This document shows, in pieces, positions 87 to 19,662 of a DNA stretch of 21,663 bases. The notes under the pieces were generated by a model, which made no database searches, had not been told where the DNA came from, and saw only the letters and a program-made list of their open reading frames with translations. Each line of letters opens with the position of its first letter. Position 1 is the stretch's first letter. A program made the position numbers and the translations under genes. Source of the stretch: a virus; IMG/VR virus record IMGVR_UViG_3300011254_000007, positions 1 to 21,663 of that record; one strand, 5' to 3'.

Positions 87-150
87 CAAGCAGAAGACGG
101 CATACGAGATGTAGCCGTGACTGGAGTTCAGACGTGTGCTCTTCCGATCT
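87..150 (+). other. Illumina TruSeq indexed adapter (sequencing artefact)
   Basis: Positions 87-110 match the Illumina P7 flow-cell oligo (begins CAAGCAGAAGACGG, ends CGAGAT). Positions 111-116 are the index GTAGCC, the reverse complement of GGCTAC, which is TruSeq index 11. Positions 117-150 match the TruSeq read-2 primer site, ending GCTCTTCCGATCT. All 64 bases are in the order and spacing of an indexed library adapter, so this is synthetic sequence left in the assembly. It marks the contig edge; biological sequence starts at about 151. No phage gene should be drawn across it. Confidence 0.98.
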
Positions 151-151
151 A

Positions 152-214
152 GACCCTAAAATGGTTACTTGTCCACATTGTCAAACTGAATTTGATTTAA
201 GGGAACATGAGTAA
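152..214 (+). CDS. C-terminal fragment of a small Cys-motif (zinc-ribbon-like) protein, 5' truncated
   Basis: The frame open from the adapter junction reads DPKMVTCPHCQTEFDLREHE and stops at 212-214. The TCPHC pair with a following short acidic tail looks like half of a zinc ribbon or treble-clef finger. The ATG at 161 has no ribosome-binding site in the ten genuine bases before it, so I think the beginning of the gene was lost at the adapter junction and this is the C terminus of a longer protein; a 17-residue peptide starting at 161 is less likely. The frame overlaps the start of the Mom-like gene by 8 bases, consistent with translational coupling. Function unknown. Confidence 0.45.
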   Translation, partial: DPKMVTCPHCQTEFDLREHE

Positions 215-845
215 AACAAATCTTAAAATTAATTGGGCTACATATGATTCTGCTAAATATGCTTGTTTAAATTGGCATTATTCATGTGTTATCCCAGTTG
301 GAAAATTAGTTAAAATAGGTGCTTGGGAAAATGAAAAATTTATTGGTGTTGTATTATTTGGTCGAGGTGCAAATAAACATTTAGGTATGCCATATGGTTT
401 AGAACAAACTGAATGTGTTGAATTAGTTAGGATAGCTTTAAATAGACATAAAAGTTCTGTTTCAAGGATTGTATCAATAGCTTTGAAATTTTTAAAAAAG
501 AGCAACTCTAATTTAAAATTAGTAGTTTCATATGCAGACCAATCACAAGGGCATCATGGAGGCATATATCAAGCAGGAAACTGGGTTTATACAGGTGCAG
601 GAAAAGCAGATAATTTTTATATGATTAAAGGTAAATTAACACACCCAAGAACAATAGCATCTAAAGGAGTTAAACAAAATATTTATGGAGCAAAAAAATT
701 AGACCCTCATGCTTATATTGTAAAAGTTCCCGGAAAACACAGATATTTAATGCCACTAGACAAACAAACTAAAAATGATATTATGAAATTATCAAAACCA
801 TATCCAAAGCGTGTAAAGCAGGCGATGAATGATATCCCATCATAA
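207..845 (+). CDS. Mom-like DNA modification protein (GNAT-fold acyltransferase family)
   Basis: This 212-residue protein resembles the phage Mu Mom family, which modifies adenine in phage DNA to a carbamoylmethyl (momamide) form and so protects it from host restriction enzymes. Visible family signature: residues 107-130 contain VVSYADQSQGHHGGIYQAGNWVYTG-type sequence, i.e. the YAD-x-x-x-GH-x-G-x-IYQA-x-NW-x-Y-x-G pattern typical of Mom homologues; upstream, ECVELVRIAL (69-78) fits the preceding conserved strand-helix. The start is ATG 207, preceded by AAGGGA at 199-204 and overlapping the previous frame by 8 bases. It lies just ahead of the terminase genes, a position where Mom homologues occur in other phages and suited to modifying DNA before packaging. 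No Com-like translational regulator is visible, but the truncated Cys-motif ORF directly upstream is a position where one could sit (Mu Com is a small zinc-binding protein encoded just before mom). The family assignment is strong; the exact chemical modification is inferred. Confidence 0.82.
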   Translation: MSKTNLKINWATYDSAKYACLNWHYSCVIPVGKLVKIGAWENEKFIGVVLFGRGANKHLGMPYGLEQTECVELVRIALNRHKSSVSRIVSIALKFLKKSNSNLKLVVSYADQSQGHHGGIYQAGNWVYTGAGKADNFYMIKGKLTHPRTIASKGVKQNIYGAKKLDPHAYIVKVPGKHRYLMPLDKQTKNDIMKLSKPYPKRVKQAMNDIPS

Positions 846-951
846 CAGCGGTAGTGCGACACTAACCTACACGCTCCAAAAATTTATTGAAAATATAATA
901 AAAATCCCATATCAATAAAAGTACCTTAACTCAAAGGGGAAAAAGAGGATT
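846..951. other. 106-base spacer with possible hairpin and weak -10-like element
   Basis: This is the longest gap between genes. Right after the mom-like stop there is an inverted repeat: GCGGTAG (848-854) can pair with CTACACGC (867-874) with one bulged base, or alternatively TAGTG (852-856) with CACTA (860-864). No T tract follows, so it is not a clear intrinsic terminator. A TATAAT lies at 894-899 but no convincing -35 hexamer stands 16-18 bases upstream. AGAGGA at 944-949 is the ribosome-binding site of the small terminase gene. A promoter here would make sense for a late operon but is not demonstrated. Confidence 0.35.
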
Positions 952-1254
952 ATGGCAAGACCAAAAAAATATAATATAGATACAGAACAATTAACTAAAT
1001 TAGCTACATTAGGTTGCACCAACATAGAAATGGCAGACTTTTTTGGTTGTTCAGCAGACTTATTAGAAAAGAGTTATTCGGAATTTATTACAAAAGGGAA
1101 AGCTAATCTAAAAATAAGGCTTAGACAGTTACAATGGCAATCAGCAACTAAGGGAAATGTAACTATGCAAATATTCTTAGGAAAGAATTTATTAGGTCAA
1201 CAAGATAGGATTGAAGAAACACAACTTGAAGAGCCACTTCCTTGGAATAGTTAA
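952..1254 (+). CDS. terS: terminase small subunit
   Basis: A 100-residue protein with an N-terminal helix-turn-helix: residues about 12-42 read LTKLATLGCTNIEMADFFGC and continue with SADLLEKSY, the 'GCT-x-x-E(I/M)A-x-x-FGCS' pattern seen in many phage small terminases. It should recognise the packaging site on concatemeric phage DNA and regulate the large subunit. It starts at ATG 952 behind AGAGGA, and its stop overlaps the large-subunit start by one base (TAATG). At 100 residues it is shorter than classical small terminases (about 140-180), leaving little room after the helical middle for an extended C terminus. Its position immediately before a clear large terminase makes the call secure even though the sequence is divergent. 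Confidence 0.8.
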   Translation: MARPKKYNIDTEQLTKLATLGCTNIEMADFFGCSADLLEKSYSEFITKGKANLKIRLRQLQWQSATKGNVTMQIFLGKNLLGQQDRIEETQLEEPLPWNS

Positions 1255-2471
1255 TGCCATTAACAAAACCACAAAAAGAAGTAATAGATAATAATTCAAG
1301 GTTTAGAGTATTAATAACTGGCAGAAGATTTGGCAAAACATATTTAGCTATTAATGAGTTAGCTAAGTTTGCAAGTAAATCAAATCAAAAAGTGTGGTAT
1401 GTTGCTCCTACTTATAGACAAGCAAAACAAATATGTTGGACTGAATTAAAAGATAGATTAATAGCCCATAAATGGGTTAAGAACGTCAATAATAGTGATT
1501 TAACAATAACACTTAAAAACAATTCTAAAATAACTTTAAGAGGTGCAGATAATGAACAATCCCTTAGAGGTGTTGGTTTAGATTTTATAGTTTTAGATGA
1601 GTTCGCAGATATACATAAAGAAGCATGGTATGAAGTATTAAGACCAACACTTTCAGATACAGGTGGTCATGCTTTGTTTTGTGGAAGTCCTAGAGGATTT
1701 GGTAACTGGTCATATGAGTTATTTAAACAAGGTGAAACTAATAAAGATTGGAATAGTTTTAAATATACAACTTTAGAGGGTGGTCAAGTCTCAGATGAGG
1801 AAATAGAACAGGCTAAACAGGATTTGGATATAAGAACATTTCAGCAGGAATATGAGGCTACTTTTGTTAATTATTCTGGAATGATTTATTACAATTTTAA
1901 CAGACAAAAAAATATTATAGATAAATTTGATAAAGAATACCCAGTATTACATATTGGATTAGATTTTAACGTAGACCCAATGACTGCTGTTGTTTGTTAC
2001 ATAGAAAGAGAAATCATAATTGTAATTGATGAAATACAAATCTATTCATCAAATACCCAAGAAATGTGTGAAGAAATCAGAAATAGATACAAAAATAAAA
2101 AGATAGTTGTTTACCCAGACCCTAGTGCTAGGCAAAGAAAAACCTCTGCAGGTGGATTTACTGACATAAGTATATTGAAAAATGCAGGATTTGATGTAAA
2201 ATGTAGAAATACAGCACCTCTTGTGAGGGATAGGATTAACTCAGTTAATTCAAAACTTAAAAATGTTAATGGTAAAAATAATCTGTTTATTCTAAAATCT
2301 TGCAAAAATGTAATAAAAAGCATAGAAAGACAGATATACAAAGAGGGAACACATATACCAGATAAGGATAGTGGATACGACCACATGAATGATGCTCTTG
2401 GGTATTTAGTTGAGTTTAATTTTCCCCTTAGACGGAATTTTGTTGCAAGCCCTCCTAAGAGGTGGAGTTGA
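1254..2471 (+). CDS. terL: terminase large subunit (packaging ATPase and nuclease)
   Basis: This 405-residue protein powers DNA translocation into the prohead and cuts the concatemer. The ATPase domain shows Walker A TGRRFGKT (22-29), an adenine-side strand VWYVAPTYRQAKQ (47-59), Walker B FIVLDEFA (111-118, with D115 and the catalytic E116) and the coupling motif CGSP (143-146). The RNase H-like nuclease domain begins with GLDFNVDP (235-242, metal ligand D237), continues with YPDPS (287-291, D289) and ends with DHMNDALGY (376-384). All key acidic residues are present, so the enzyme looks active. The length is normal to slightly short for the family. The gene overlaps the small subunit by one base and the portal ATG by one base. 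Confidence 0.96.
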   Translation: MPLTKPQKEVIDNNSRFRVLITGRRFGKTYLAINELAKFASKSNQKVWYVAPTYRQAKQICWTELKDRLIAHKWVKNVNNSDLTITLKNNSKITLRGADNEQSLRGVGLDFIVLDEFADIHKEAWYEVLRPTLSDTGGHALFCGSPRGFGNWSYELFKQGETNKDWNSFKYTTLEGGQVSDEEIEQAKQDLDIRTFQQEYEATFVNYSGMIYYNFNRQKNIIDKFDKEYPVLHIGLDFNVDPMTAVVCYIEREIIIVIDEIQIYSSNTQEMCEEIRNRYKNKKIVVYPDPSARQRKTSAGGFTDISILKNAGFDVKCRNTAPLVRDRINSVNSKLKNVNGKNNLFILKSCKNVIKSIERQIYKEGTHIPDKDSGYDHMNDALGYLVEFNFPLRRNFVASPPKRWS

Positions 2472-3889
2472 TGAACAAGGAATTTCTACACAATAAACAT
2501 GATTTATGGCATCAAAATATATCTAACTGGGAGTTTTATATTCGCAGTTACTTAGGTGGTAATGATTATAAAAATGGCTATTATCTTCATAGATATATAT
2601 TAGAAACGCCAGAAGAATATGACCAAAGAGTAAGGCATACACCAGTAGATAATCATTGTAAGAATGTTGTGCAGATATACACTAGTTTCCTTTGGCGAGT
2701 GCCACCTTCAAGAGATTATGGCGATTTAGATGGTGACCCACAATTAGCTTCATTTATAGAAGACGCTGACTTAGATGGTAGAAACTTTAATACTGTGATG
2801 CGAGAAGTTCAGATGAACGCTAGTATTTATGGTAATTGTTGGGTAGTAATTGATAAACCTCAGTCTAATGCTAAAACAAGAGCCGAAGAATTAGCTCAAG
2901 ACATAAGACCTTATGTTTCAATATATACACCAGAGAATATTGTTAACTGGAATTATAAAAGGTCAGCAAGTGGTAGGTTTTATTTAGATTTATTGGTTGT
3001 CATAGAAGATGTTAATTCAGAAAGAGCAATCATTAAAGTTTTTACTGAGGAAAGTATACTTACATATGAGTTTGAGGACTACACAGAAGAATATACAGAC
3101 AAAGAACCTAAACTAATTGAGGAAGTACCAAATGCTATAGGGGTTATTCCTGCAGTTAATGTTTATAATTTAAGAGGTGCTAAAAGACCTATAGGTATAA
3201 GTGATTTGGCTGATGTAGCTTATTTACAGCAATCTATTTATAATGATTACTCAGAAAAAGAACAATTAATTAGATTAGCTAATCACCCTAGTTTAGTAAA
3301 AACACCTAATGTAGAAGCTAGTGCAGGGGCAGGTGCTATCATAGAAATACCAGAGGATTTAGATTCAGCTTTAAAACCTTACATTATCCAACCTAGTGGT
3401 CAAAACCTAGAGGGTATTATGAAGTGCATACAAACAAAAGTTGATGCTATTGATAGAATAACACACATGGGTTCAGTAAGAGCTACAGGTTCACAAATAG
3501 CAAGTGGTATAGCCTTACAAACAGAGTTTCAGTTATTAAATGCTAGATTATCAGAAAAAGCCGATTATTTAGAAAATGCAGAAGAACAAATATGGGATTT
3601 ATTTGCTAAATGGCAAGATAAACAATGGAATGGCTCAGTAAATTATCCAGATACATTTGATATTAGAGATTGGGCTAATGATTTACAATACTTACAAATG
3701 GCTAAAGCTAGTGGCATAAAATCAGAAACCTTTAACAAAGAAATAGATAAGCAAATAGCTGAGGCAGTCATAGATGATAATGAAACTATGAAAACAATTA
3801 ACGATGAAATAGATGCTACCAGAACTGTTAGAGGTCAATTCCAAACAACAGAAGTAGAAGGGCAAACAGTTGGCGAAGAAGAAAGTTAG
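2471..3889 (+). CDS. portal protein
   Basis: A 472-residue portal protein, the dodecameric ring at the capsid vertex through which DNA is packaged and to which the connector attaches. Evidence is its position directly after the large terminase, its length, the N-terminal region with YLGGNDYKNG, the helical NHCKNVVQIYTSFLWR segment, and the C-terminal helical part rich in Gln and Asn (RATGSQIASGIALQTEFQLL) leading to an acidic tail, similar in layout to SPP1 gp6-type/DUF4055-type portals. I take ATG 2471 as the start, since it overlaps the terminase stop (TGATG) and has AGAGGTGGAG just upstream; an in-frame GTG at 2462 would add three residues but lies within that Shine-Dalgarno stretch. The last 20 bases overlap the next small gene. 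Confidence 0.88.
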   Translation: MNKEFLHNKHDLWHQNISNWEFYIRSYLGGNDYKNGYYLHRYILETPEEYDQRVRHTPVDNHCKNVVQIYTSFLWRVPPSRDYGDLDGDPQLASFIEDADLDGRNFNTVMREVQMNASIYGNCWVVIDKPQSNAKTRAEELAQDIRPYVSIYTPENIVNWNYKRSASGRFYLDLLVVIEDVNSERAIIKVFTEESILTYEFEDYTEEYTDKEPKLIEEVPNAIGVIPAVNVYNLRGAKRPIGISDLADVAYLQQSIYNDYSEKEQLIRLANHPSLVKTPNVEASAGAGAIIEIPEDLDSALKPYIIQPSGQNLEGIMKCIQTKVDAIDRITHMGSVRATGSQIASGIALQTEFQLLNARLSEKADYLENAEEQIWDLFAKWQDKQWNGSVNYPDTFDIRDWANDLQYLQMAKASGIKSETFNKEIDKQIAEAVIDDNETMKTINDEIDATRTVRGQFQTTEVEGQTVGEEES

Positions 3890-4052
3890 AAAAGTACCTA
3901 AAGATAAAAAAACGAAGATACCTAAAAAATATTTATCTGGGTTAAAGGGTGCTAAAAGAAATGAAAGAGCTAGGCTTATAAAGCAAGTAAGCAGATTGTA
4001 TAAATCTGGTGCAAGAATACCTTTAGCTTTGTTAAAAAGGAGAACTGGCTAA
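3870..4052 (+). CDS. very basic 60-residue protein, unknown function
   Basis: A small Lys/Arg-rich protein (by my count 15 Lys and 8 Arg against one Asp and one Glu). The N terminus is MAKKKVRKVPKDKKTKIPKK, followed by a predicted helical part with SGLKGAKRNERARLIKQ. The only possible start is TTG at 3870, because no other ATG, GTG or TTG in the frame would leave a sensible product; AGAAGGG lies about 7 bases upstream. It overlaps the portal end by 20 bases and the next gene by one. It is the first of three basic small proteins around the portal-minor head region. Proteins of this style occur beside structural genes of marine phages. Whether it is a virion component or binds DNA is not known. 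Confidence 0.68.
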   Translation: MAKKKVRKVPKDKKTKIPKKYLSGLKGAKRNERARLIKQVSRLYKSGARIPLALLKRRTG

Positions 4053-4321
4053 TGGCTGTAAAAAGAAAACCATTATCTGCTATAACTCTCAAAACATTAA
4101 AGGCTAAGGCTAAAAAATCTAAACTATTTAATTTAGCTGATTTAAAAGCATCATTTCGTAGAGGACAAGGAGCTTTTTTGTCTGGTGGAAGTAGACCTAA
4201 AATACCTATGCAAGCGTGGGCTATGGCTAGAGTAAATAAATTAATAAGCAAAGGTAGGTCTGGAACATTTGATAAAGATATTATTTCAAGGGCTAGTAAA
4301 AGAAAGAGGAAAAAGAAATGA
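4052..4321 (+). CDS. basic 89-residue conserved phage protein, unknown function
   Basis: Net charge is about +24 (18 Lys and 9 Arg against 3 Asp). The central region FRRGQGAFLSGGSRPKIPMQ followed by AWAMARVNKLISKG resembles a family of small phage proteins with the pattern 'RG-x-GA-(5-8 residues)-SRP-...-W-A-x-ARVN-x-(F/L)'. From memory this is a DUF5824-like family, a label that needs a profile search. The protein ends in KRKRKKK. It starts at ATG 4052, which shares the A of the previous TAA, and ends overlapping the next start by four bases (ATGA), indicating coupled translation. Function unknown; the conserved aromatic-basic core suggests a folded domain, not just a charged tail. Confidence 0.72.
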   Translation: MAVKRKPLSAITLKTLKAKAKKSKLFNLADLKASFRRGQGAFLSGGSRPKIPMQAWAMARVNKLISKGRSGTFDKDIISRASKRKRKKK

Positions 4322-5031
4322 CTTTTGCAAGTATCAATAATGCCCCTTTTGGCTTGGCTTTACAGCAAGGTTTAGTTAATCGGTTTAGTGGTATTCATAA
4401 GTTTGGACTTAATACTGCTGTTGGTACATCTTTTGAAACTATATGGGATGGCAATAATACTTACACATATCCATCTTCAGCAGGAACAGCCACAGCTACC
4501 TCAAGTAATACTGGTGCTGATAATAACGGAACAGTAGAAATACAAGGATTAGATGAAAATTATGACTTGGCTACAGAAACATTAACAATAGGTGGTAGTG
4601 CAGGAACAATTACATTTAGCAGGGTATTTAGAGCAATAATGAAGACTGCTAATACAGGTACTGCCAATGTTGGTGATATATCTATTACAGTTTCATCAAC
4701 TATAGTAGCAAAGATAACAGCTACCTATGGGCAAACCTTAATGTGTGTTTATACAGTCCCTAGAAACTATGTAGCCTATCTTATGCAATTAGACGTAGGT
4801 AGTTCTAAAGATTTGGAAAATGAAATCAAATTTATGACAAAAGAAATATCTAATGGTAATGTCTGGAGAACTAAAGCATTTATAACAACTAGAGGTGGAT
4901 TTATAGAAAAGAATTATGTTGTTCCAGTTAAGATAGAAGAAAAAACAGATATTGAGTTACAGGGCAAAGCTAGTGCAAATTCTGCTATATCAGCAGGTTT
5001 TGAGCTTGTTTTACAAGATAAAAATGAGTGA
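4318..5031 (+). CDS. beta-rich phage structural protein (decoration or fibre-like), function unknown
   Basis: A 237-residue protein with few charges, many Thr/Ser/Gly and alternating hydrophobic residues, consistent with all-beta architecture. The N terminus APFGLALQQGLVNR, then HKFGLNTAVGTSFETIWDG, and later FSRVFRA and GQTLMCVYTVPRNYVAYLMQ, recall a structural-protein family I associate with marine phages (glycine-rich 'KFG-N' start, 'ETIWDGG' segment, 'TVP' strand, late 'DIEL' strand). There is no enzyme motif, signal peptide or membrane segment. It sits in the head module between portal and scaffold genes, so a head decoration, head fibre or vertex role is more likely than a tail role. 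Its start ATG overlaps the previous stop (ATGA), and its own stop overlaps the zinc-ribbon gene by 8 bases. Confidence 0.7.
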   Translation: MTFASINNAPFGLALQQGLVNRFSGIHKFGLNTAVGTSFETIWDGNNTYTYPSSAGTATATSSNTGADNNGTVEIQGLDENYDLATETLTIGGSAGTITFSRVFRAIMKTANTGTANVGDISITVSSTIVAKITATYGQTLMCVYTVPRNYVAYLMQLDVGSSKDLENEIKFMTKEISNGNVWRTKAFITTRGGFIEKNYVVPVKIEEKTDIELQGKASANSAISAGFELVLQDKNE

Positions 5032-5170
5032 TGATATAAATTATATAATATGTCCTAGATGTAAAACATATGCGAAAGAAACAGAGCTTAAAGATGTTTA
5101 TAAATGTATTGGTTGTGGTTTAATAATTAACGAAAGATTAGACGATAGGAAAGAAGATGGCAAAGTATAG
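5024..5170 (+). CDS. 48-residue zinc-ribbon protein
   Basis: Two Cys pairs, CPRC (residues 10-13) and CIGC (28-31), separated by 14 residues, form a minimal zinc ribbon; the rest is short and charged (MSDDINYII at the start, ERLDDRKEDGKV at the end). I place the start at ATG 5024: it overlaps the preceding stop and is the first Met of the zinc-binding unit; an earlier ATG in the same frame (4952) would read through the end of the structural gene in another frame. The gene overlaps the next start by 14 bases. Function unknown; small ribbons of this kind may bind nucleic acid or protein. Confidence in a translated gene is good because of the Cys spacing and the coupled layout. Confidence 0.68.
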   Translation: MSDDINYIICPRCKTYAKETELKDVYKCIGCGLIINERLDDRKEDGKV

Positions 5171-5444
5171 AGGTAAAGAAGTAAAGCTAAATAAACCTTT
5201 TAGGCTATCTACTGCTGAATCTAAACGTAAAAAGTTTGGTGTTTATGTAAAAAACAAAGCTACTGGAAATGTTAAAAAGGTAACATTTGGTGCTAGAGGT
5301 ATGTCTATTAAAAAGAATATACCTGCAAGGCAAAAATCTTTCCTAGCTCGTATGGGTGGCGTTTTAAAAGAAGTAAAAGGGCAAAAAACTCTAAGTCCTG
5401 CATATTGGTCTATAAGGGCATGGAAAAAAGACTTTCCATTATGA
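5157..5444 (+). CDS. basic 95-residue conserved phage protein, unknown function
   Basis: The third basic small protein of the cassette (net charge about +22). Its core KKFGVYVKNKATGNVKKVTF followed by GARGMSIKKNIPARQKSFLAR and ending AYWSIRAWKKDFPL matches my recollection of a widespread marine phage family in which 'KKF-x-VYV-x-NK-x-TGNVKKV-x-FG' is followed by 'RKSFRARH-x-C' and a C-terminal 'ARYWSC-x-x-W'. In this copy the Cys and His positions are replaced (SFLARMGG and AYWSIRAW), so any metal or disulfide role of those residues is lost. It starts at ATG 5157 behind AGGAAAGA; the stop is followed 3 bases later by the minor head gene. Probably virion-associated, by context only. Confidence 0.72.
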   Translation: MAKYRGKEVKLNKPFRLSTAESKRKKFGVYVKNKATGNVKKVTFGARGMSIKKNIPARQKSFLARMGGVLKEVKGQKTLSPAYWSIRAWKKDFPL

Positions 5445-5447
5445 TAA

Positions 5448-6350
5448 ATGTCCAGAATATTAGATAAATTAGCTGACCAACATGAAGAACGAATTATAAA
5501 TGTTTTATATCGTTTAGAAGAAGATGTTATCAAAGAAGTAACTAGAGCCACTAAAGGGGAATTAGTTTCTCAAAGATTAGCAATACAGCTACAGCCAAAA
5601 ATCAGAACACTTATTGAATCTACATTTTTAAATGAAGCTGATTTAATTATTAATGAGGAATACAATAAAATAGCAAAAGTTGTATTAGATACTTTTGGCG
5701 AGATGCCTATTCCCAATAAATTTAAATCTTTAACAGAAGTTGACTTGGCTACAATTAATGCTCTTAAAACTCAGACATTTAGTGGTTTTGAGGATATAGC
5801 TGAAAGGTTTTTAAAAGTTATAAATGATGAGGTTTATCAAAGCACAATAGCAGGAAGACCTTTTGAGGATATGGTCAAGAATATTAGACAGCATATTAAT
5901 GGCATTTATCAACAATCAAACACTCGTGAAATAAATGAATTAGTTGATTTTATTAACGAGAATAAATTTGATAATGCTAAAAAAACCCAAGTTGATGAAG
6001 CGATAAGTAAACTGCATACACAATATGCATCAGATAGAGCAGGGAATAACCTTAGAAGATATGCAAGCCAAATAGCTCATGACTCAGTTATGCAGTTTCA
6101 TGGACAATTTACAGTATCTAAAGCTAAAGAAGCAGGATTAGAACATTATAGGTATACTGGCACATTAGTGAGGGATAGTAGACCTTTCTGTCAGACTATG
6201 CTAAATAAGGTATTAACCGAAAAAGAAATTCGGGATATTTGGAATAACCAAGCGTGGGCAGGCAAATCTACTGGAGACCCTTTTATAGTTAGAGGTGGAT
6301 ATAGATGCCGACATACTTGGATTCCCACCAACCCAGATTGGGATATATAG
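5448..6350 (+). CDS. minor head protein (SPP1 gp7 / Mu gpF-like morphogenesis protein)
   Basis: A 300-residue mostly helical protein with a conserved C-terminal domain. Residues 229-300 carry HYRYTGTLVRDSRPFCQ, then GDPFIVRGGYRCRHTWIP; C248, C287 and H289 are the likely zinc-binding residues of the Mu gpF-like head morphogenesis domain. The family binds the portal or the incoming DNA end and is needed for correct head assembly or ejection; a few copies are in each virion. Its place between portal and scaffold/capsid genes is the standard order. The start is ATG 5448, three bases after the previous stop, and the gene ends 9 bases before the scaffold gene. There is no fusion to a toxin or protease domain. 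Confidence 0.84.
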   Translation: MSRILDKLADQHEERIINVLYRLEEDVIKEVTRATKGELVSQRLAIQLQPKIRTLIESTFLNEADLIINEEYNKIAKVVLDTFGEMPIPNKFKSLTEVDLATINALKTQTFSGFEDIAERFLKVINDEVYQSTIAGRPFEDMVKNIRQHINGIYQQSNTREINELVDFINENKFDNAKKTQVDEAISKLHTQYASDRAGNNLRRYASQIAHDSVMQFHGQFTVSKAKEAGLEHYRYTGTLVRDSRPFCQTMLNKVLTEKEIRDIWNNQAWAGKSTGDPFIVRGGYRCRHTWIPTNPDWDI

Positions 6351-6359
6351 GAGACTAAA

Positions 6360-7064
6360 ATGGAAGAAAATAAAGTTGAGCAATCTGCTGAAACGACAGA
6401 AGCAACTACAGAAGTTGAAGAAGTCAAAGCTGAAAAAAAATATACACAAGACCAAGTTGCAGAAATGGTTAAAAGTAGGTTAGCCCAAGAAAGAAGCCAA
6501 GTTTACAAAAAACTAGGTGTAGAGGATTTAGACATAGCTATTAATGCTGTCAAAACTCAAAAAGAATTAGAAGAAAAGCAAAAGATACAAAAGGGCGAGT
6601 TTGAAGAAATACTCAAGAATAAGACTCAAGAATGGCACAAAGAAAGGTCAAACTTAGAAAACCAGTTAAAAGATATTAAGATAAATAAATCATTATTATC
6701 TTCTGCATCTAAGAATAAAGCCATTAATCCAGACCAAGTTGTAAGCCTTTTACAGCCACAAATTAAGCTAAATGAAAGTGGAAATGTAGAAATACTTGAT
6801 TCTAAGGGATTACCAAGGTACAATAGTAATGGGGAACTTTTGTCAACTGACGAGTTAGTACAGGAGTTTTTAACACATAACCCGCACTTTGTTAGTGCTA
6901 CTCCAAGTGGCTCTGGCTCGGTGTCAAATGTGGATAGGACAGAACTCAATAAACCTTTAAATTTGAGTGATTTAGATATGACTAACCCTAATGATAGGAA
7001 GAAGTACTCTGAATATAGAAAGCAGAGAGATTCCCAATCAAGAAGGATAGTAATTAATAATTAA
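6360..7064 (+). CDS. capsid scaffold protein
   Basis: A 234-residue hydrophilic protein with an acidic, Glu/Thr-rich N terminus (MEENKVEQSAETTEATTEVE), a long predicted coiled coil at about residues 30-115 (KKYTQDQVAEMVKSRL and the following Lys/Glu/Gln-rich heptads) and a polar C terminus with a basic end (SEYRKQRDSQSRR). This is the typical make-up of phage internal scaffold proteins, which direct shell assembly and leave before or during packaging. The position directly before the major capsid gene supports it. I see no protease motif, and no separate prohead protease gene exists in the window, so the scaffold is probably released without a phage-coded protease of a type I recognise. The ribosome-binding site is AGGAGA shortly before ATG 6360. 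Confidence 0.83.
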   Translation: MEENKVEQSAETTEATTEVEEVKAEKKYTQDQVAEMVKSRLAQERSQVYKKLGVEDLDIAINAVKTQKELEEKQKIQKGEFEEILKNKTQEWHKERSNLENQLKDIKINKSLLSSASKNKAINPDQVVSLLQPQIKLNESGNVEILDSKGLPRYNSNGELLSTDELVQEFLTHNPHFVSATPSGSGSVSNVDRTELNKPLNLSDLDMTNPNDRKKYSEYRKQRDSQSRRIVINN

Positions 7065-7090
7065 ATGGCTATAATTATAAGGAGAAAAAA

Positions 7091-7936
7091 ATGGCTAACG
7101 AAACAACCTCAACCACCATTTCGGAATTATATACCGAAATAGTCGCTGAAGCATTATTTGTGGCAAGCGAACAGTCAATTATGAGAAATCTAGTCCGCAA
7201 CTATACTATTATAGGTGGTGGAAAATCAGTTGAAGTACCAATATATTCAACAGTATCCGCCTCAGCAGTAGCAGAAGCAACAGATTTATCAAACACAGCA
7301 GTCAACCCAAGTTCAGTAACAATTACTGCATCTGAGGTTGGTATTATGACAACACTAACAGACCTAGCTAGAAACTCAGCATCAAGAAATGTTGCAGGGG
7401 ATATTGGTAGGTTATTTGGTGAAGCCATAGCTAGGAAAATGGACGCAGACTTATCTGGATTATTTACAGGTTTCTCAACAGAGAAAGGACCGGGAGCAGG
7501 TGCTGAGTTAACAATCCAAGACTTGTTTGAAGCAGGTACAGAGTTAAGGTCAGCTAATGCCCCCGGACCTTACTATGGTGTATTTCACCCAAAGCAAATC
7601 TTTAATGTTAAGAAAGCATTAACTAACACTTTTGCAGGAACAGCTAATATACCAGATTTAGGTAACGAAGCTATGAGAGCAGGATTTGTTGGTCAGATTG
7701 CAGGTATTCAAATATTTGAATCTTCAAACATTTCAGTAGATGGCTCTGATGACTCTATTGGTGGTGTATTCTCACAAGATGCTTTAGGAGTTGCTATGAT
7801 GCAAGACCTTAAGATTGAATCACAAAGAGATGCTTCACTAAGAGCAGATGAAATCGTAGCGACAGCAGTTTATGGAGTTGGTGAACTACATGACAGCTAT
7901 GGAGTTAAGTTAACAGCAGATAGCTTAGCAAACTAA
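7091..7936 (+). CDS. major capsid protein (HK97-fold)
   Basis: A 281-residue protein in the canonical place after the scaffold. The N-terminal helix (ISELYTEIVAEALFVASEQS) is followed by VRNYTIIGGGKSVEVPIYST, then TASEVGIMTTLTDLARNSAS for the long spine helix, and near the end GIQIFESSNIS and RADEIVATAVYGVGELHDSY. This pattern (spine helix, 'VFHPKQ' segment, terminal beta strand with 'R-x-DEIVATAVYG') fits HK97-fold capsids of the short, delta-domain-less type that use a separate scaffold. It forms the icosahedral shell. The ribosome-binding site ATAAGGAG (7077-7084) is the strongest in the window, and an intrinsic terminator follows the gene: both fit high expression. Confidence 0.92.
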   Translation: MANETTSTTISELYTEIVAEALFVASEQSIMRNLVRNYTIIGGGKSVEVPIYSTVSASAVAEATDLSNTAVNPSSVTITASEVGIMTTLTDLARNSASRNVAGDIGRLFGEAIARKMDADLSGLFTGFSTEKGPGAGAELTIQDLFEAGTELRSANAPGPYYGVFHPKQIFNVKKALTNTFAGTANIPDLGNEAMRAGFVGQIAGIQIFESSNISVDGSDDSIGGVFSQDALGVAMMQDLKIESQRDASLRADEIVATAVYGVGELHDSYGVKLTADSLAN

Positions 7937-7943
7937 TTTAACT

Positions 7944-7965
7944 AGGGAGGGAAACCTCCCTTTTT
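7944..7965 (+). terminator. intrinsic terminator behind the capsid gene
   Basis: GGGAGG (7945-7950) pairs with CCTCCC (7955-7960) around a GAAA tetraloop (7951-7954), extended by A7944-T7961, and a run of five T (7961-7965) follows. The perfect GC-rich stem in an otherwise AT-rich genome, the GNRA loop and the T tract make this a textbook Rho-independent terminator. It stands 8 bases after the major capsid stop and 16 bases before the next start, so it probably lowers expression of the connector and tail genes relative to the capsid by partial termination, or stabilises the capsid mRNA end. Confidence 0.9.
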
Positions 7966-7980
7966 ATCTAAGGAGTTAAA

Positions 7981-8196
7981 ATGGAAACTGTTAAATTAAT
8001 AAATAAAAAAGGCGAGATTATTGAAAGATTAAAAATACAATATGAGCCTAATGAAAAGATTTGGGCTGAAAGAGGTTGGTCTATTTATGAGGGCAAACCA
8101 AAGCCAGTAGAAACAAAGATAGAGCCTAGTGGTGACCCAGAATGGCAACCAGAAGCATCTAAACCCAAGAAGAAATCTAAAAAGAAAGCTAAATAA
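7981..8196 (+). CDS. 71-residue protein with Lys-rich tail, function unknown
   Basis: The N-terminal half (METVKLINKKGEIIERLKIQ) looks like a beta hairpin, followed by EKIWAERGWSIYEG, a short helix with the 'GW' turn often seen in small phage head-tail region proteins. The C-terminal half is low-complexity, Pro/Glu- then Lys-rich (KPKKKSKKKAK). It starts at ATG 7981 behind AAGGAG and overlaps the next gene by one base. It is the first gene after the capsid terminator. A head-related accessory role is inferred from context only. Its layout resembles that of the 51-residue protein at 9576-9731. Confidence 0.7.
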   Translation: METVKLINKKGEIIERLKIQYEPNEKIWAERGWSIYEGKPKPVETKIEPSGDPEWQPEASKPKKKSKKKAK

Positions 8197-8672
8197 TGGC
8201 AACAACAGAATTTGCAGTAGCTAACACAGATTTACAAAAGATACAGCCAGATATTTTAGGGTTTGGCATAGCTGATTTTGCAGACCAGTTACAGTTTGCT
8301 GAAAATGATGTTTTAAGACGTATTCGAGAAGAATGGTGGGAAAGATATAGGCATCAAGTCAGATACAAGGATATTACTAAAATAACTTCTGTTGAAATGA
8401 CTAATAGTAAACTAACAAATTCACAATGGACACAATCAGTAGTTTATTTGTCTTTATGGAAATATATTTATCCAATATTAACTAAATGGCGAGACCCAGA
8501 CACAGGTGAGGGTAAAGATACATTCCAAGTTCAAATTGACTTTTATAGGGATAGATACGAAGAAGAATTTCAAGCTATTCTAAGAGATGGTGTCGAATAT
8601 GATGAAGATGGTGGTGGTACTGTTTCAGATAGCGAAAAAGAAGCCCTGCACAGCCTTAGATTAGTTAGATAA
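8196..8672 (+). CDS. head-tail connector / adaptor protein
   Basis: A 158-residue, largely helical protein (DLQKIQPDILGFGIADFADQ, then ENDVLRRIREEWWERYRHQV) encoded second after the major capsid gene, where phages carry the adaptor that sits under the portal (HK97 gp6 / SPP1 gp15 type). The aromatic helix EEWWERYRHQV, the middle helix QSVVYLSLWKYIYPILTKW and the acidic C-terminal part (YDEDGGGTVSDSEKE) fit a connector subunit; no enzyme motif is present. It has one-base overlaps with both neighbours. The role is assigned from position and secondary-structure style, with no diagnostic motif. Confidence 0.68.
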   Translation: MATTEFAVANTDLQKIQPDILGFGIADFADQLQFAENDVLRRIREEWWERYRHQVRYKDITKITSVEMTNSKLTNSQWTQSVVYLSLWKYIYPILTKWRDPDTGEGKDTFQVQIDFYRDRYEEEFQAILRDGVEYDEDGGGTVSDSEKEALHSLRLVR

Positions 8673-9136
8673 TGGAAGTTTCTGTAAAGGTAAATACTAT
8701 AGAGGTCACTAACCTTTTAAAAGAAATAACTGGCAAACAAAAAGCAGTTATTAACAAGGCTTTGAAAAGAGTATCTAATATGGCTGTTTTGATGATTACA
8801 AAGCGTACACAGAGCGGAAAGTTACCAGATGGTGGTAATATGCGACCTTATGCAAGTACGACTGTCAGAGGGCGAAAAAAGAGGGGTAGGCAGACTGGTT
8901 ATGTAGATTTAACTGATACTGGTAAAATGTTTAGAAGTTTAGACTTTAGAACTGGTGGATTTAAAAGCACATTATTTTTTGCTAACAAAGAAAGAGCAAA
9001 GATAGCCAGTTATCATGACACTTTTGGTGTAGGTAGGAGAAAGATAACAAGACCTTTCTTTTCTATAGGAGACAAAGAAGAAGATAAGTTAAAAGCAGAG
9101 TTTTCAAAATTTTATTTTAAAGAAATGAGATTATGA
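8672..9136 (+). CDS. neck / tail completion protein (Mu gpG or HK97 gp10-like)
   Basis: A 154-residue basic protein. The middle section GKLPDGGNMRPYASTTVRGR followed by GYVDLTDTGKMFRSLDF and the later ITRPFFSIGDKE closely follow the signature of the phage virion morphogenesis/gp10 family ('DG-x-x-...-P-...-L-x-x-tG-x-m-...-S', then '-x-x-RPFlg'). These proteins join the head connector to the tail or cap the tail. Its position between adaptor and tail terminator agrees. The stop overlaps the next start by four bases (ATGA). Confidence 0.78.
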   Translation: MEVSVKVNTIEVTNLLKEITGKQKAVINKALKRVSNMAVLMITKRTQSGKLPDGGNMRPYASTTVRGRKKRGRQTGYVDLTDTGKMFRSLDFRTGGFKSTLFFANKERAKIASYHDTFGVGRRKITRPFFSIGDKEEDKLKAEFSKFYFKEMRL

Positions 9137-9576
9137 GCAAAAGAGAAAACATAGCTAGTGATATAATAACTAAACTTGATGCTGTAACTAGTCCTATTGA
9201 GTTTAAAAAGATAACCAGAGAACCTTTCGAGGTAGAAGAATTATCAGATGCTCAGTTTCCTGCAATGTTTGTACAAAGTGGAGATGAAACAAGAGAGGTT
9301 GCAAGTATAGGTGATACTGGTTCTGGAAGTTATAATGGCACAATAGATTTTTTAATTGTAGCCTTTGCAAAAGGTACAGATACAAATATTGATACGAAAA
9401 GAAATCAATTAATTGAAGTTATAGAAGAAACATTAGATAATGATGTAACCAGAAATGGAAACGCTATAGATACTCAAGTTATCGAAGCATCAACAGATGA
9501 GGGAACTATTTACCCTTATGGGGGTGTTAGGGTAACAGCGAGGGTTTTCTATGAATATACTAGAGGAGATTCATAA
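9133..9576 (+). CDS. tail terminator protein
   Basis: A 147-residue protein with alternating strands and helices: an N-terminal helix (ENIASDIITKLDAV), strand pairs with FPAMFVQSGDE and GTIDFLIVAFAKG, a helix NQLIEVIEETLDND and a final strand VRVTARVFYEYTRGD. This alpha/beta layout, size and position just before the tail tube gene match lambda gpU/minor tail-type terminators, hexameric rings that stop tube growth and bind the connector. There is no catalytic signature. The end overlaps the next small gene by one base (TAATG). Confidence 0.74.
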   Translation: MSKRENIASDIITKLDAVTSPIEFKKITREPFEVEELSDAQFPAMFVQSGDETREVASIGDTGSGSYNGTIDFLIVAFAKGTDTNIDTKRNQLIEVIEETLDNDVTRNGNAIDTQVIEASTDEGTIYPYGGVRVTARVFYEYTRGDS

Positions 9577-9731
9577 TGGCTAAAGACATACAAATCGTTA
9601 AAGGTAAAGATACTATTACCATAACAGCAGAGAATTTGGAGCATTTTAAAAAGCTAGGTTATAAAGAAGCCGAAAAAAATGTTGCAAATAAAACCCAAAA
9701 AAGCGATAAAGAAACCACAGATAAGGAGTAA
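9576..9731 (+). CDS. 51-residue protein with charged tail, function unknown
   Basis: A short gene filling the gap between tail terminator and tail tube. The protein begins MAKDIQIVKGKDTITITAEN, followed by LEHFKKLGYKEAEK and a Lys/Thr/Asp-rich end. The start ATG overlaps the tail terminator stop by one base, the frame is open for 51 codons, and its stop lies 3 bases before the tail tube ATG, with GGAG inside its last codons serving as the tube's ribosome-binding site. This close packing argues for a real gene. It shares the order 'beta hairpin, helix with GY/GW, Lys-rich tail' with the protein at 7981-8196. Function unknown. Confidence 0.65.
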   Translation: MAKDIQIVKGKDTITITAENLEHFKKLGYKEAEKNVANKTQKSDKETTDKE

Positions 9732-9734
9732 AAC

Positions 9735-10121
9735 ATGGCTACACATCACGGAAAAGAGGGAGTTGTAACTGTTGGCGGAACAGCCATAGGAAATGTTACA
9801 GGTTACACCCTAGACACAACTCAAGACGTTGTTGAAACTACTGCATTAGAAGATTCCAATAAATCATATTTAGTAGGTAGAGGAACATTTACAGCTTCTA
9901 TTGATATGAACTATGACGAAACTAATGCACAACAAGCATCACTAGTACAAGGTTCAAGCCTTAGCTTTGTATTTTTACCAGAGGGTAATGCAAGTGGTGA
10001 TGAAAGTTTTAGTGGAACTGGAATTGTAACTGGAATGTCAGTTGGTGTTACACTTGATGGTGTTACAACTAGAACTGTATCATTACAAGGAACTGGTGGT
10101 ATTACTATCGGTACTGTGTAA
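9735..10121 (+). CDS. major tail tube protein
   Basis: A 128-residue all-beta protein rich in Gly/Thr/Val: GKEGVVTVGGTAIGNVTGYT, then TTQDVVETTALEDSNKSY and GRGTFTASIDMNYDETNAQQ. The 'V-x-x-T-(A/S)-L-x-D' strand, the 'G-x-x-T-x-x-I-D-M-x-YD' strand and the location just before the chaperone frameshift pair identify it as the small tail tube subunit used by many siphoviruses, which stacks as hexameric rings around the tape measure. The ribosome-binding site AAGGAG lies within the previous gene's end. It is shorter than lambda gpV (246) and has no C-terminal Ig domain. Confidence 0.85.
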   Translation: MATHHGKEGVVTVGGTAIGNVTGYTLDTTQDVVETTALEDSNKSYLVGRGTFTASIDMNYDETNAQQASLVQGSSLSFVFLPEGNASGDESFSGTGIVTGMSVGVTLDGVTTRTVSLQGTGGITIGTV

Positions 10122-10124
10122 GAT

Positions 10125-10475
10125 ATGTCAGAAAAAATAGACTACTTTGATGGTGTAAGAGAACATTTTAGTACATTAGAAACTCAGATAATCGAAGTGC
10201 CAGAGTGGGGTTTAGTAGGCGATAAAGCTATTTATTGCAAACCTTTTAATATGCTTGAAAAACAGAAAATTTTTAAGGGTGCTTCTGGTACTGACCTAAT
10301 AGTTTTGATTGATGTAATTATTGAAAAAGCATTAACAAAAGATGGCGATAAAATGTTTAATGCTACTCATGTTTTGGCATTTAAAACCAAAGCTGATACT
10401 AATGTAATTGCTGACGTTGCTACTAAAATAATGGGTACAGGAAACGACAATATAGACGAGAATAAAAAAAACTAA
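10125..10475 (+). CDS. tail assembly chaperone, short form (G)
   Basis: A 116-residue protein ending by normal termination at TAA 10473-10475. It occupies the slot of lambda gpG: after the tail tube, before the tape measure. The central part PEWGLVGDKAIYCKPFNMLE and LIVLIDVIIEKALTKDGDK resemble tail chaperones of small siphoviruses. The ribosome-binding region is poor (3-base gap after the tube gene), so it is probably translated by reinitiation. The last codons run AAT AAA AAA AAC, where the slippery heptamer of the frameshift lies. The short form should coat the tape measure together with the long form described next. Confidence 0.8.
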   Translation: MSEKIDYFDGVREHFSTLETQIIEVPEWGLVGDKAIYCKPFNMLEKQKIFKGASGTDLIVLIDVIIEKALTKDGDKMFNATHVLAFKTKADTNVIADVATKIMGTGNDNIDENKKN

Positions 10476-10645
10476 AAAGTGACCCAGAATTACATAATAT
10501 TTTTGGGTTAGCCGAAAAACTTCATAAGACTGTTTCTGAAATCTTGCAAATGTCAGTAAGTGAGTTTAATATGTGGATAGCGTATTATGCTTTACAAATT
10601 GAAGAACAAGAAAGACAAAACAGATTGATGAAAGCTAGACGATAG
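10125..10645 (+). CDS. tail assembly chaperone, -1 frameshift fusion (GT)
   Basis: If ribosomes slip -1 at A AAA AAC (10466-10472), translation continues CTA AAA AGT GAC from 10472 to a TAG at 10643-10645, adding 57 residues and giving 173 in total. The added T-like domain reads LKSDPELHNIFGLAEKL, then HKTVSEILQMSVSEFNMWIA and YYALQIEEQERQNRL: the 'L-...-V-x-E-l-x-x-MS-x-x-E-x-x-W-x-AYY-x-l' pattern typical of gpT-like extensions. There is no start codon with a usable ribosome-binding site early in this frame, so it is most simply explained as a fusion. Known role of the family: GT binds the tape measure and recruits tube subunits. The ratio of G to GT is set by slip efficiency. Confidence 0.85.
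10466..10510 (+). promoter_or_regulatory. -1 programmed ribosomal frameshift signal
   Basis: The slippery heptamer A AAA AAC is at 10466-10472, inside a run of eight A (10464-10471) and in the correct phase (zero-frame codons AAA AAC). The zero-frame stop TAA follows immediately. After a 7-base spacer, 10480-10489 can pair with 10501-10510 (ten pairs, two of them G-U, core CCC/GGG) around an 11-base loop. Heptamer, spacer and stem-loop have the classic layout of a -1 frameshift site. Confidence 0.85.
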
Positions 10646-12675
10646 TGGCAACAAAACAAGTAAACATAGATATATTAGCCAAAGATAAGACTGCAAAAGC
10701 TATGCAGTCAGCCACTAAAGGTGTTAATAAACTAAAAGATAACGTTCAACAATCTGTATCTGCACAAACAAATTCATTTAATGCTTTAGGTAATACTGTA
10801 AGAAATGTTGTTGGTGGTGTTATTGTTTTCCAAGCATTAAGATTCAGCAAAGAAATGGTCAATATGGCTAGTGCTGTTGAAGAAATGCAATCTAAGTCAG
10901 CAGTTGTTTTTGGAAATTTTGTTTCAGATGTAAGGGGTCAATTAGAAAAATTTGGAGATACAGTAGGTAGAAGCACCTTTGAATTAGAGGGAATGGCATC
11001 TTCTATACAAGACACCTTTGTTCCTATGGGATTTGCTCGTAAAGAAGCATCAAAATTATCAGTACAATTAACTAAATTAGCAGTAGATGTTGCATCATTT
11101 AACAATGCTAGTGATGTAGAAACAATGATGGCTTTTCAAAGTGCATTAGTTGGCAATCATGAAACAGTTAGACGTTTTGGAGTTGTTATTACAGAAGCAA
11201 CATTAAAACAAGAACTTCTTAGAATGGGGATAACAAAAACTGCTGATGAAGTAAGTAATGCTGAGAAAGTACAAGCAAGGTTAAACTTAATAATTGCAGG
11301 TACATCAGATGCTCAAGGAGATGCAGAACGGACAAATACAAGTTTTGCCAATTCTATGAAAGCATTAAGTGCTGAATTTCAAGAGTTTATGGTTGAAGCT
11401 ATAAACCCAATGTTACCTGCACTAGCCAATATGGTTCGTTCTATAAAAGATTCAATTATACAAACAAAAGAGTTTTTAAGAAGTATTGGGCTTTTAAAAG
11501 AATTAAATGAAATAGTTCCAATAGTAGACCAATTAGAAAAAAATCAAGATTCACTTTCTATTGCCACAGCTAAATTAACAAAAGAAACTGATTTGTTAAA
11601 TGCTATTCAAACAATGACATTTTTAGAAAAAAGCAAAGAATTTGCTAAAGCCAATGGCGAATTTGGAATGTCTATATTTCAAGGTGAAAAAGCTGTAAGA
11701 GATAGAATAGAAGCGTTAAAAGAAGAAATAAATCAAATAAATGCAAATAGAGAAAGTATCATTTTTGACTCTGAAATGAGAGAAATAAATACTACTAAAA
11801 TAAATAAACAAGTAGATGCACTAAAAAATTTAAATGAACAAAAAGCTAAAGCGACTGATGGAACTGCTTTGGGAATAGATGCAAGTATGGGCGGTGTTCC
11901 TACAGCATTCACAGATGAAGAAAAGCTATCTAGTTTAAGGGATATGGCATCATTAGAACTTGCTGTTCAAAAAGAAGCATTTGAAAACAAATATAATTTG
12001 ATACAAGAACAAGACGAATTGGAAGCCGAATTAAGAAGAATTAGGGCAGATGACACACTTACAATTGCTCGTGAAACTGCACAAAAGGAATTAGAAATAA
12101 GAAAAAAACTTTATGATGATAATTTAAATTTAATAAAAAATGGTAAAGCCAACCTAATAAATTTAGAAAAAATGTCTGGCAAAGAAATGAATGAATTGGC
12201 TAAAGATACTGGAAGATTAGCCTTAGCTGAAATGGCTCAAAATAATAAAAAGGCTTTTGCTCTTAACAAAGCTTTTAATATGGCTGAAGCTATAATGAAT
12301 ACTGCTACTGGTGTGAGTAAAGCCTTATCTACTGGTAATATTCCTCTGGCTGTTTTGATTGGTGTTCTGGGTGCGGTTCAAATAGCCACAATATCCCAAC
12401 AAAAATATCAAGGCAGACGTTTAGGTGGTCGAATGAACCAAGACCAACCTTATATGGTAGGAGAAGCAGGACCCGAATTAGTCGTGCCAGATAGAGCTTC
12501 AAATGTTGTGCCAAATGGTCAGCTAGGAAATATGGGAAAACAAGTTACAGTTAATTTTAATATAACTACAGTAGATGCTAAAGGGTTTAATCAATTATTG
12601 GTTAATTCTAGGGGTACTATTATTAATATGATTAATAGTGCTGTTAATGAAAAAGGTAAAATGGCGATAATATGA
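10645..12675 (+). CDS. tail tape measure protein
   Basis: A 676-residue, mainly helical protein that sets tail length and is threaded through the tube. Recognisable parts: N-terminal helices with AKDKTAKAMQSATKGVNKL; the common tape measure segment VASFNNASDVETMMAFQSAL followed by GNHETVRRFGVVI (about 149-182); long Lys/Glu-rich coiled coils (about 290-520); a hydrophobic stretch IPLAVLIGVLGAVQIATI (about 563-581); and the C-terminal GGRMNQDQPYMVGEAGPELV (about 594-613) typical of the family. It starts at GTG 10645, which shares its G with the GT stop TAG, so translation is coupled to the frameshifted product. At about 0.15 nm per residue, a tail near 100 nm is expected. Confidence 0.93.
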   Translation: MATKQVNIDILAKDKTAKAMQSATKGVNKLKDNVQQSVSAQTNSFNALGNTVRNVVGGVIVFQALRFSKEMVNMASAVEEMQSKSAVVFGNFVSDVRGQLEKFGDTVGRSTFELEGMASSIQDTFVPMGFARKEASKLSVQLTKLAVDVASFNNASDVETMMAFQSALVGNHETVRRFGVVITEATLKQELLRMGITKTADEVSNAEKVQARLNLIIAGTSDAQGDAERTNTSFANSMKALSAEFQEFMVEAINPMLPALANMVRSIKDSIIQTKEFLRSIGLLKELNEIVPIVDQLEKNQDSLSIATAKLTKETDLLNAIQTMTFLEKSKEFAKANGEFGMSIFQGEKAVRDRIEALKEEINQINANRESIIFDSEMREINTTKINKQVDALKNLNEQKAKATDGTALGIDASMGGVPTAFTDEEKLSSLRDMASLELAVQKEAFENKYNLIQEQDELEAELRRIRADDTLTIARETAQKELEIRKKLYDDNLNLIKNGKANLINLEKMSGKEMNELAKDTGRLALAEMAQNNKKAFALNKAFNMAEAIMNTATGVSKALSTGNIPLAVLIGVLGAVQIATISQQKYQGRRLGGRMNQDQPYMVGEAGPELVVPDRASNVVPNGQLGNMGKQVTVNFNITTVDAKGFNQLLVNSRGTIINMINSAVNEKGKMAII

Positions 12676-13280
12676 GTGGTGCATTACCAAATACAAGATT
12701 TAATGCTATTAATTTCAAAAGCAACCAAAAAACTTTATTATCTGAAACTGATAGTGGAAAAACTTTTAGAAGACAAGTACAAGGTCAAAGATTTAGTTTT
12801 ACAGTAGCTTATCCACCTATGACTAGGTCTGAATTTGCACCTATAATGGCTTTCATAATGAAACAAAGAGCCAGACAAGAAAACTTTACTGTTACTTTCC
12901 CAAGCTATTTAAATGCACAGGGCAACGAAACAAATACTTTGTTAGTTAATGGGGTTCATTCTGCTACTGATACCACAATAGCGATTGATGGGTTTGCAGG
13001 TGATGGTGCAGGAAGATTAAAAGCAGGTGATTTAATCAAGTTTGCACATGATAAAGTTTATATGGTTGTTGAAGATGTAACCTCATCAAGTAATTCAGCT
13101 ACAGTTACTATAGAGCCACCATTAAGGGAAGCACTAGCGGATAATAGCTCAGTAACTTATGATTCAGTTCCTTTTAATGTACATTTAACAAGTGATACTC
13201 AAGAATTTGCTAGTGGACAAGTTGATAAAGACGGAAACCTTTTATTTAATTATGAATTTGATGTTATTGAGGCTTTGTAA
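12672..13280 (+). CDS. distal tail / tail-tip protein
   Basis: A 202-residue beta-rich protein directly after the tape measure. It opens with LPNTRFNAINFKSNQKTLLS, and the middle part FRRQVQGQRFSFTVAYPPMT suits a structural barrel. A central insertion (about 85-150: TLLVNGVHSATDTTIAIDGF, GRLKAGDLIKFAHDKVYMVV) resembles the small beta domain with 'AGD-x-(I/L)-x-F' found in tail-tip proteins of several phages, and the end VDKDGNLLFNYEFDVIEAL returns to the main barrel. It should link the tail tube end to the hub. The start overlaps the tape measure end (ATGA) and the stop overlaps the next ATG by one base. Confidence 0.72.
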   Translation: MSGALPNTRFNAINFKSNQKTLLSETDSGKTFRRQVQGQRFSFTVAYPPMTRSEFAPIMAFIMKQRARQENFTVTFPSYLNAQGNETNTLLVNGVHSATDTTIAIDGFAGDGAGRLKAGDLIKFAHDKVYMVVEDVTSSSNSATVTIEPPLREALADNSSVTYDSVPFNVHLTSDTQEFASGQVDKDGNLLFNYEFDVIEAL

Positions 13281-13846
13281 TGCCCAGAGGTTTAACAAGT
13301 GCAGTTAAAACAGAATTAACTACAGGAATAATTGAATCTATTCTTTTGGTAGAAATAGGGTTGGCAACACCAATTTATTTAACAAATGCAAGTTTTGACA
13401 TAACATCTAGTGTTTCTGGAACATCAAGAACATATTTAGCTAATGGGCATTTTAGAGGAATAACAGGGGTACAGGAAACAAATGCACCCACAAAAAACTC
13501 ATTATCCCTTAGTTTATCGGCTGTTGACCAAACTTATGTTTCCCTAGCTTTAAATGAAAATATAATTAACGATAATGTTTATATTTACCAAGGTTACTTA
13601 GATAGTAATTTAAGTGTTATAGCAGACCCTTTTTTATTGTTTTATGGAACAATAGATGAATTTAAAATATCTGATAATACTTCAACAGCTACTTTAGTTT
13701 TAGTATTAAGTTCACATTGGGGTAATTTTAGTAAAACAAGTGGTAGAACAACTACAAATAATTCACAGCAAAGATTTTTCCCAAATGATTTTGGCATGAA
13801 TTTTAGTGCTTTAACAGTTCGAGATATTAAATGGGGTAGAGAATGA
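13280..13846 (+). CDS. tail-tip hub-associated protein (lambda gpL/DUF2163-like position)
   Basis: A 188-residue beta-rich protein. The pattern IIESILLVEIGLATPIYLTN, then GTSRTYLANGHFRGITGVQE, SLSLSAVDQTYVSLALNENI and IYQGYLDSNLSVIADPFLLF followed by YGTIDEFKISDN is that of tail-tip proteins that pair with the central hub (a 'yLT-...-ng-f-...-i-...-n-...-G-x-I-...' series of strands). It follows the distal tail protein and overlaps the GNAT-like gene by four bases (ATGA). No Cys cluster of the lambda gpL iron-sulfur type is present, so it is not a straightforward gpL. Role by position and fold style. Confidence 0.66.
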   Translation: MPRGLTSAVKTELTTGIIESILLVEIGLATPIYLTNASFDITSSVSGTSRTYLANGHFRGITGVQETNAPTKNSLSLSLSAVDQTYVSLALNENIINDNVYIYQGYLDSNLSVIADPFLLFYGTIDEFKISDNTSTATLVLVLSSHWGNFSKTSGRTTTNNSQQRFFPNDFGMNFSALTVRDIKWGRE

Positions 13847-14286
13847 CCAGTACCCATATATATTATGCAGAAAGAACAGATGTTGAAAGCATCTATGAAA
13901 TGGCGATAGAATATAAAAATGTTGATTTAGCAGATGCGAATTATCCAGATATTGACAGGGGTAAATTAATACATTTTATTAATACTATGCTGAAAAAAGG
14001 CAAAATTATATTAATGAGGGATTTAGACAAAGATAAATTAATTGGTTGTTGTATGTTTAATAAATCAGAATATTTTTTTAGTAAAAGCGAAATTATGCAA
14101 ATACAAATAGTGTATATTAAAAAAGATTATAGAAATTTTAAATTAGTAAAGACTTTAATTGATAGTGTTAAAAGACAAGCTGATGGTTTGCCTATAGTTT
14201 TATCTATTACATCTGGATTAGGCATAGACCCAGTTTTTGAAAAATTAGGTTTTAAAAATATGGGTAGTAACTGGAGATTTGTGTAA
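13843..14286 (+). CDS. GNAT-like acetyltransferase-fold protein in the tail module
   Basis: A 147-residue protein with the overall GNAT layout: N-terminal helices (RTDVESIYEMAIEY), strand pair KIILMRDLDKDKLIGCCMFN, core strand plus helix IMQIQIVYIKKDYRNFKLVK followed by TLIDSVKR, and the C-terminal VFEKLGFKNMGSNWRFV typical of the family. The acyl-CoA pyrophosphate loop, normally (Q/R)-x-x-G-x-(G/A), is replaced by YRNFKLV (96-102), so CoA binding may be weak or lost. It lies between two tail-tip genes, where lambda-like phages carry the gpK peptidase and gpI. It may be a tail-tip assembly factor built on the GNAT fold or a modifying enzyme for a tail protein; the sequence does not decide. 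Overlapped start (ATGA); stop immediately adjacent to the hub ATG. Confidence 0.72.
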   Translation: MTSTHIYYAERTDVESIYEMAIEYKNVDLADANYPDIDRGKLIHFINTMLKKGKIILMRDLDKDKLIGCCMFNKSEYFFSKSEIMQIQIVYIKKDYRNFKLVKTLIDSVKRQADGLPIVLSITSGLGIDPVFEKLGFKNMGSNWRFV

Positions 14287-17271: not shown

Positions 17272-17280
17272 GGTTAAAAT

Positions 17281-19122: not shown

Positions 19123-19138
19123 CTTAAAGGAGATTAAA

Positions 19139-19450
19139 ATGGCAGTAACTTGGACAATAGGAACAATGGAACGTGATTTAGTGCAGGGAGACAACACAGA
19201 TATTGTGACTATTTTGCACTGGAGAGCGACAGACGAAGATGCAGATGGCAACACAGGTTCAGCTTATGGAACAGTGGGTGTAACTCTTGTAGGCACACCA
19301 ACACCATATGCAGATATTACTGAGACACAAGCTATAGGATGGGCTAAAGATGCTTTAGGTGAAGATGAAGTTGCATCAATAGAGGCAAGAATAGCATCAC
19401 AGATAGATGCTTTAGCAAACCCAACAACAGCAAGTGGAGTATCTTGGTAA
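19139..19450 (+). CDS. 103-residue conserved phage protein after the fibre, function unknown
   Basis: Sequence pattern: MAVTWTIGTMERDLVQGDNT, then VTILHWRATDEDADGNTGSA, YGTVGVTLVGTPTPYADITE and a C-terminal helix AIGWAKDALGEDEVASIEAR, ending NPTTASGVSW. I recognise this as a common small protein next to tail fibre genes in marine phages ('MAVTWTI-x-x-(L/M)ERD', '-HW-x-', 'SYG-x-x-G', 'PY-x-x-(L/I)TE-x-(Q)-x-(I/V)GW', final '-P-x-x-x-G-(V/L)PW'). It probably has a small beta domain plus a helix and may be virion-associated. No catalytic motif. Strong ribosome-binding site AAAGGAG before ATG 19139; the stop overlaps the next ATG by one base. Confidence 0.78.
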   Translation: MAVTWTIGTMERDLVQGDNTDIVTILHWRATDEDADGNTGSAYGTVGVTLVGTPTPYADITETQAIGWAKDALGEDEVASIEARIASQIDALANPTTASGVSW

Positions 19451-19662
19451 TGAGTGAAACAGTAACAATTAATGATAAAGAATTTAAGTTTGAAGATTTA
19501 GATGAAAGTCAAAAATATTATTATTCGCAGATAAAACTAACACAACAAGAAGCCGACACCCTAAAAATTAAGCTAGACCAGATGACAGGTTCAAATTTGT
19601 TTTTCAAAGACCAATTAGCAAAATCACTAATTAAAGAGGAAGATAATGGTCAAAGCGAGTGA
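19450..19662 (+). CDS. 70-residue conserved phage protein with coiled coil, function unknown
   Basis: MSETVTINDKEFKFEDLDES opens with a short beta hairpin, followed by a helix (QKYYYSQIKLTQQEADTLKI and the next 20 residues) with heptad-like hydrophobics, ending in an acidic tail. It looks like a small family I remember as DUF6447-like ('VTI-(N/D)-(D/G)KEY-x-x-(E/D)DLS-x-...-Q-(I/L)'); this label should be checked. I choose ATG 19450, which shares the A of the previous TAA, over the in-frame TTG at 19444 two codons earlier. The end overlaps the following membrane protein gene by 17 bases. Confidence 0.7.
   Translation: MSETVTINDKEFKFEDLDESQKYYYSQIKLTQQEADTLKIKLDQMTGSNLFFKDQLAKSLIKEEDNGQSE

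Follow-up and report, generated by a model that had tools for sequence, protein, structure and literature searches.

It is almost certain that the window (the whole stretch of 21,663 nucleotides analysed here) opens with a sequencing artefact, in which positions 77-150 stem from an Illumina library and flow cell, escaped trimming and entered the assembly, probably by read-through, and positions 1-76 most likely lie past the end of the template. In an exact string search against Illumina oligos, positions 87-150 were identical at 64 of 64 bases, a match for which chance is out of the question. The block comprises, in the right order and on the plus strand, the Illumina P7 sequence at 87-110 (24/24 bases, CAAGCAGAAGACGGCATACGAGAT), printed in passages of PMC4801390 and PMC4234473; the six-base index GTAGCC at 111-116, the reverse complement of barcode GGCTAC; and the TruSeq read-2 primer site at 117-150 (34/34 bases, GTGACTGGAGTTCAGACGTGTGCTCTTCCGATCT). 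The GTAGCC index is number 11 in the primer tables of both papers, where the primers are named ILLPCR2_11 and Index_11R, respectively, and the index primers of PMC6972841 include an identical index 11; the blocking oligo BO3.P7.F, as given in PMC4801390, is a printed version of the P7-index-read-2 block. All 64 bases of the TruSeq index 11 adapter or PCR primer, GTAGCC included, are thus found in the window, which differs from the library primer in carrying ten T outside P7. The comparison with the indexed adapter set that the original prediction had suggested therefore bears out its assignment of P7, a six-base TruSeq index (GTAGCC, read as GGCTAC) and the read-2 site, with correct coordinates for the oligo, as well as its conclusion that the library was of the TruSeq type. 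That prediction drew the artefact too short, however, having missed the ten T at 77-86.

A search with the Mom protein encoded in the window retrieved 42 related loci, the closest of which, L122, is part of an IMG/VR contig of 29,080 bases (IMGVR_UViG_3300011258_000046, hereafter G001) that represents the same phage free of the adapter. Compared over two fetched pieces, corresponding to window positions 150-19344 and 19345-21663, the window and G001 agree at every one of 21,514 bases (100% identity), and the alignment contains neither mismatches nor gaps. The identity breaks abruptly, exactly at the junction between adapter and insert: base 150 is T in both the adapter and G001 by chance, and the phage sequence starts at window position 151, equivalent to position 5807 of G001. 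Where the window carries the adapter, G001 has a natural ParB-like gene, and the P7 sequence, a 13-base adapter core and the run of ten T are all absent from L122 and the fetched stretches of G001. The contig edge is thus an artefact and 87-150 is synthetic, both as originally claimed, since the block is a published oligo and natural phage sequence takes its place in an identical contig. That the block truly resides in the phage, for instance as part of its natural genome or as an insert introduced by engineering, is so improbable as to be negligible: its presence in the record is all that speaks for it, against which stand the identical contig that lacks it and its confinement to contig edges, with a library-specific barcode, across unrelated contigs. 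No adapter was seen at the right end of the window, past which G001 continues.

Scanning IMG/VR for the 64-base block, whichever index it carried, yielded at least 119 stretches, holding 120 matches listed, so the adapter artefact is common in this database. Among the matches listed, the distance between P7 and the contig edge has a median of 21 nt and is within 202 nt in 119 of 120 cases, the largest values being 183, 202 and 627. The contig ends in the T run or at P7 in 55 of the 120 listed matches and runs on beyond it in the other 65. A single index per metagenome was found in 27 of the 28 metagenomes represented among these matches, the exception being 3300007351, where the indices are split 10 to 1. 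The block therefore recurs in other public contigs, as the suggested search was meant to reveal, and it does so with the contig-edge position and the library-specific barcode of a read-through artefact. All 21 other IMG/VR stretches that contain the exact GGCTAC-barcoded block come from metagenome 3300011254, and the window therefore very probably derives from that library. These 21 stretches resemble the window in having the same block and index at a contig edge, in most cases with a T run in front, and differ from it in the length of sequence past the T run, which ranges from 0 to 189 nt compared with 76 nt in the window. In one further contig of the scan (IMGVR_UViG_3300021247_000834), the adapter block occurs again in the tail past the adapter, and this additional copy shares about 86-97% identity with the copies in other contigs.

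Positions 77-86, on the plus strand, consist of exactly ten T and are most likely part of the construct that includes 87-150. The window has no second run of eight or more T, nor any other run of T or A as long as this one, and ten T would be expected by chance with a probability of about 4e-6 at the T frequency of the window. Exactly ten T adjoin P7 in 44 of the 120 adapter matches listed from IMG/VR, and nine or more in 97; the run is shorter than nine in the remaining 23, eight of which have no T at all. We take the P7 oligo grafted on the flow cell to carry a spacer of ten T, matching 77-86, and the peak at ten T among the IMG/VR matches would follow from it; a literature search found no paper that states the T10 spacer or the T10-P7 string. 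The variation of the T run from 0 to 22 across other adapter-bearing contigs could indicate a poly-T stretch native to the phage or a miscalled homopolymer, with only 87-150 being synthetic, a reading that we consider very unlikely given the exact length of the run, its single occurrence in the window, its low chance expectation and its recurrence at this length in the other contigs. The run is thus best read as the poly-T spacer of the grafted P7 oligo.

The sequence beyond the outer end of the adapter, at positions 1-76, most likely consists of erroneous base calls past the template end, that is, noise or bleed from other clusters, and not of phage DNA. Nothing along the full length of G001 matches it, where a control query of equal length did find its match; exact pieces of 23-27 bases are absent from viral_contigs and genome_contigs; comparison with phage records gave nothing significant (best E-value 2); and the 25-residue peptide of frame 1 gave no Pfam result. 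The original prediction had called gene calls and terminal-repeat analyses that use 1-150 invalid, and given the absence of 1-76 from G001, that warning holds. The composition of the segment is intermediate. Its log-likelihood ratio of tails versus phage body is 0.9. The mean is -9.0 (sd 5.2) for 283 76-mers from the phage body, 1.8% of which reach the score of the segment, and 9.3 (sd 5.8) for 37 tails from other adapter-bearing contigs, 2 of which fall to that score or below it. A lower share of T also sets the segment apart from the pooled tails. This composition, together with a G+C content of 33%, near the window value, and a frame 1 that is open through all 25 codons, is compatible with 1-76 being real DNA that comes from a different organism or from elsewhere in a phage, attached either in a chimeric library molecule or by mis-joining at the poly-T run, with 77-150 still being adapter. 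We regard this origin as unlikely, considering the lack of any match in the identical phage contig, of any exact match in the two contig sets and of any significant match among phage records, and because the poly-T spacer is expected to be the physical end of the sequenced molecule. The narrower version, in which a chimeric library molecule linked the adapter to real DNA of an unknown organism, seen here as 1-76, appears slightly less probable still; if true, it would be a technical curiosity about how chimeras arise past the flow-cell spacer and would mean nothing for the biology of the phage. The possibility that 1-76 encodes the N-terminus of the ParB-like protein continuing at position 152 was rejected, since the ParB-like gene is intact in G001 and its product starts differently, and 1-76 has no counterpart in that contig.

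Taken as base calls past the template end, 1-76 would fit the following route. The insert of the library molecule would have been shorter than the read length, so that the read crossed the phage insert (the reverse complement of 151 onwards) and then the read-2 adapter, the index GGCTAC and P7. It would next have covered the poly-T spacer of the surface oligo, ten bases long, before running off the template, after which base calls would reflect noise or bleed from other clusters. Left without adapter trimming, the read would then have been retained by the assembler to form the left contig end.

The first genuine phage bases, at 151-213 on the plus strand, are the 3' end of the ParB-like gene, which is cut by the artefact; its frame runs from 152 to a stop codon at 211-213, as in G001 from position 5807 onwards, and only its last codons remain in the window. 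The intact open reading frame in G001 (L122:1914-2417) encodes 167 amino acids and overlaps the Mom gene. The designation of this protein as ParB-like is putative, drawing on gene adjacency, on likeness to the ParB-like gene of Enterococcus phage phiEf11 and on the fold, which we presume to be that of ParB. Just inside the artefact, the Mom-family gene is intact at 207-845 on the plus strand (Pfam PF25680, E 1e-49). In all 42 related IMG/VR loci (L122-L163, tblastn), the Mom gene has a ParB-like gene as its immediate upstream neighbour, and the same adjacency is found in phiEf11, which suggests that the two form a conserved pair; a literature search found no paper evidently devoted to this pairing. 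The window also encodes terminase, portal and capsid proteins in addition to Mom, and this marine phage is related to the Pelagibacter phages HTVC202P, HTVC026P, HTVC111P and HTVC112P, sharing 67-69% nucleotide identity across 36-41% of the first 8 kb. Rfam and tRNA scans of the window gave no result.

The adapter artefact is also present in deposited phage genomes, once within an annotated terminal repeat. The record of Staphylococcus phage Andhra (KY442063.1) has TruSeq read-2 adapter with index CACTGT at both ends (1-55 and 18493-18546), and its annotated terminal repeats (14-168 and 18380-18534) take in about 42 adapter bases per end. Among 50,697 deposited phage records, 17 match the 77-150 block at an E-value of 1e-5 or better, several of them at record ends. 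Of 5,426 complete E. coli genomes, two (NZ_AP046542.1 near 2224670 and NZ_AP040990.1 near 4842132) also have a match to the whole T10-P7-index-read-2 block, at 93% identity, inside the chromosome record, apparently as an assembly artefact. Literature searches for the read-through adapter artefact gave only unrelated papers; the relevant sections of PMC7111523 contain nothing specific about adapters at contig ends, and among adapter-derived peptides, KQKTAYE occurs in two papers, in one of which the passage in question does not concern adapters.

The first 150 bases of the window are therefore an ordinary assembly artefact, fully explained, and the finding holds no biology of the phage. Its significance is one of quality control alone: positions 1-150 should be trimmed before gene calling, terminal-repeat tests and clustering.
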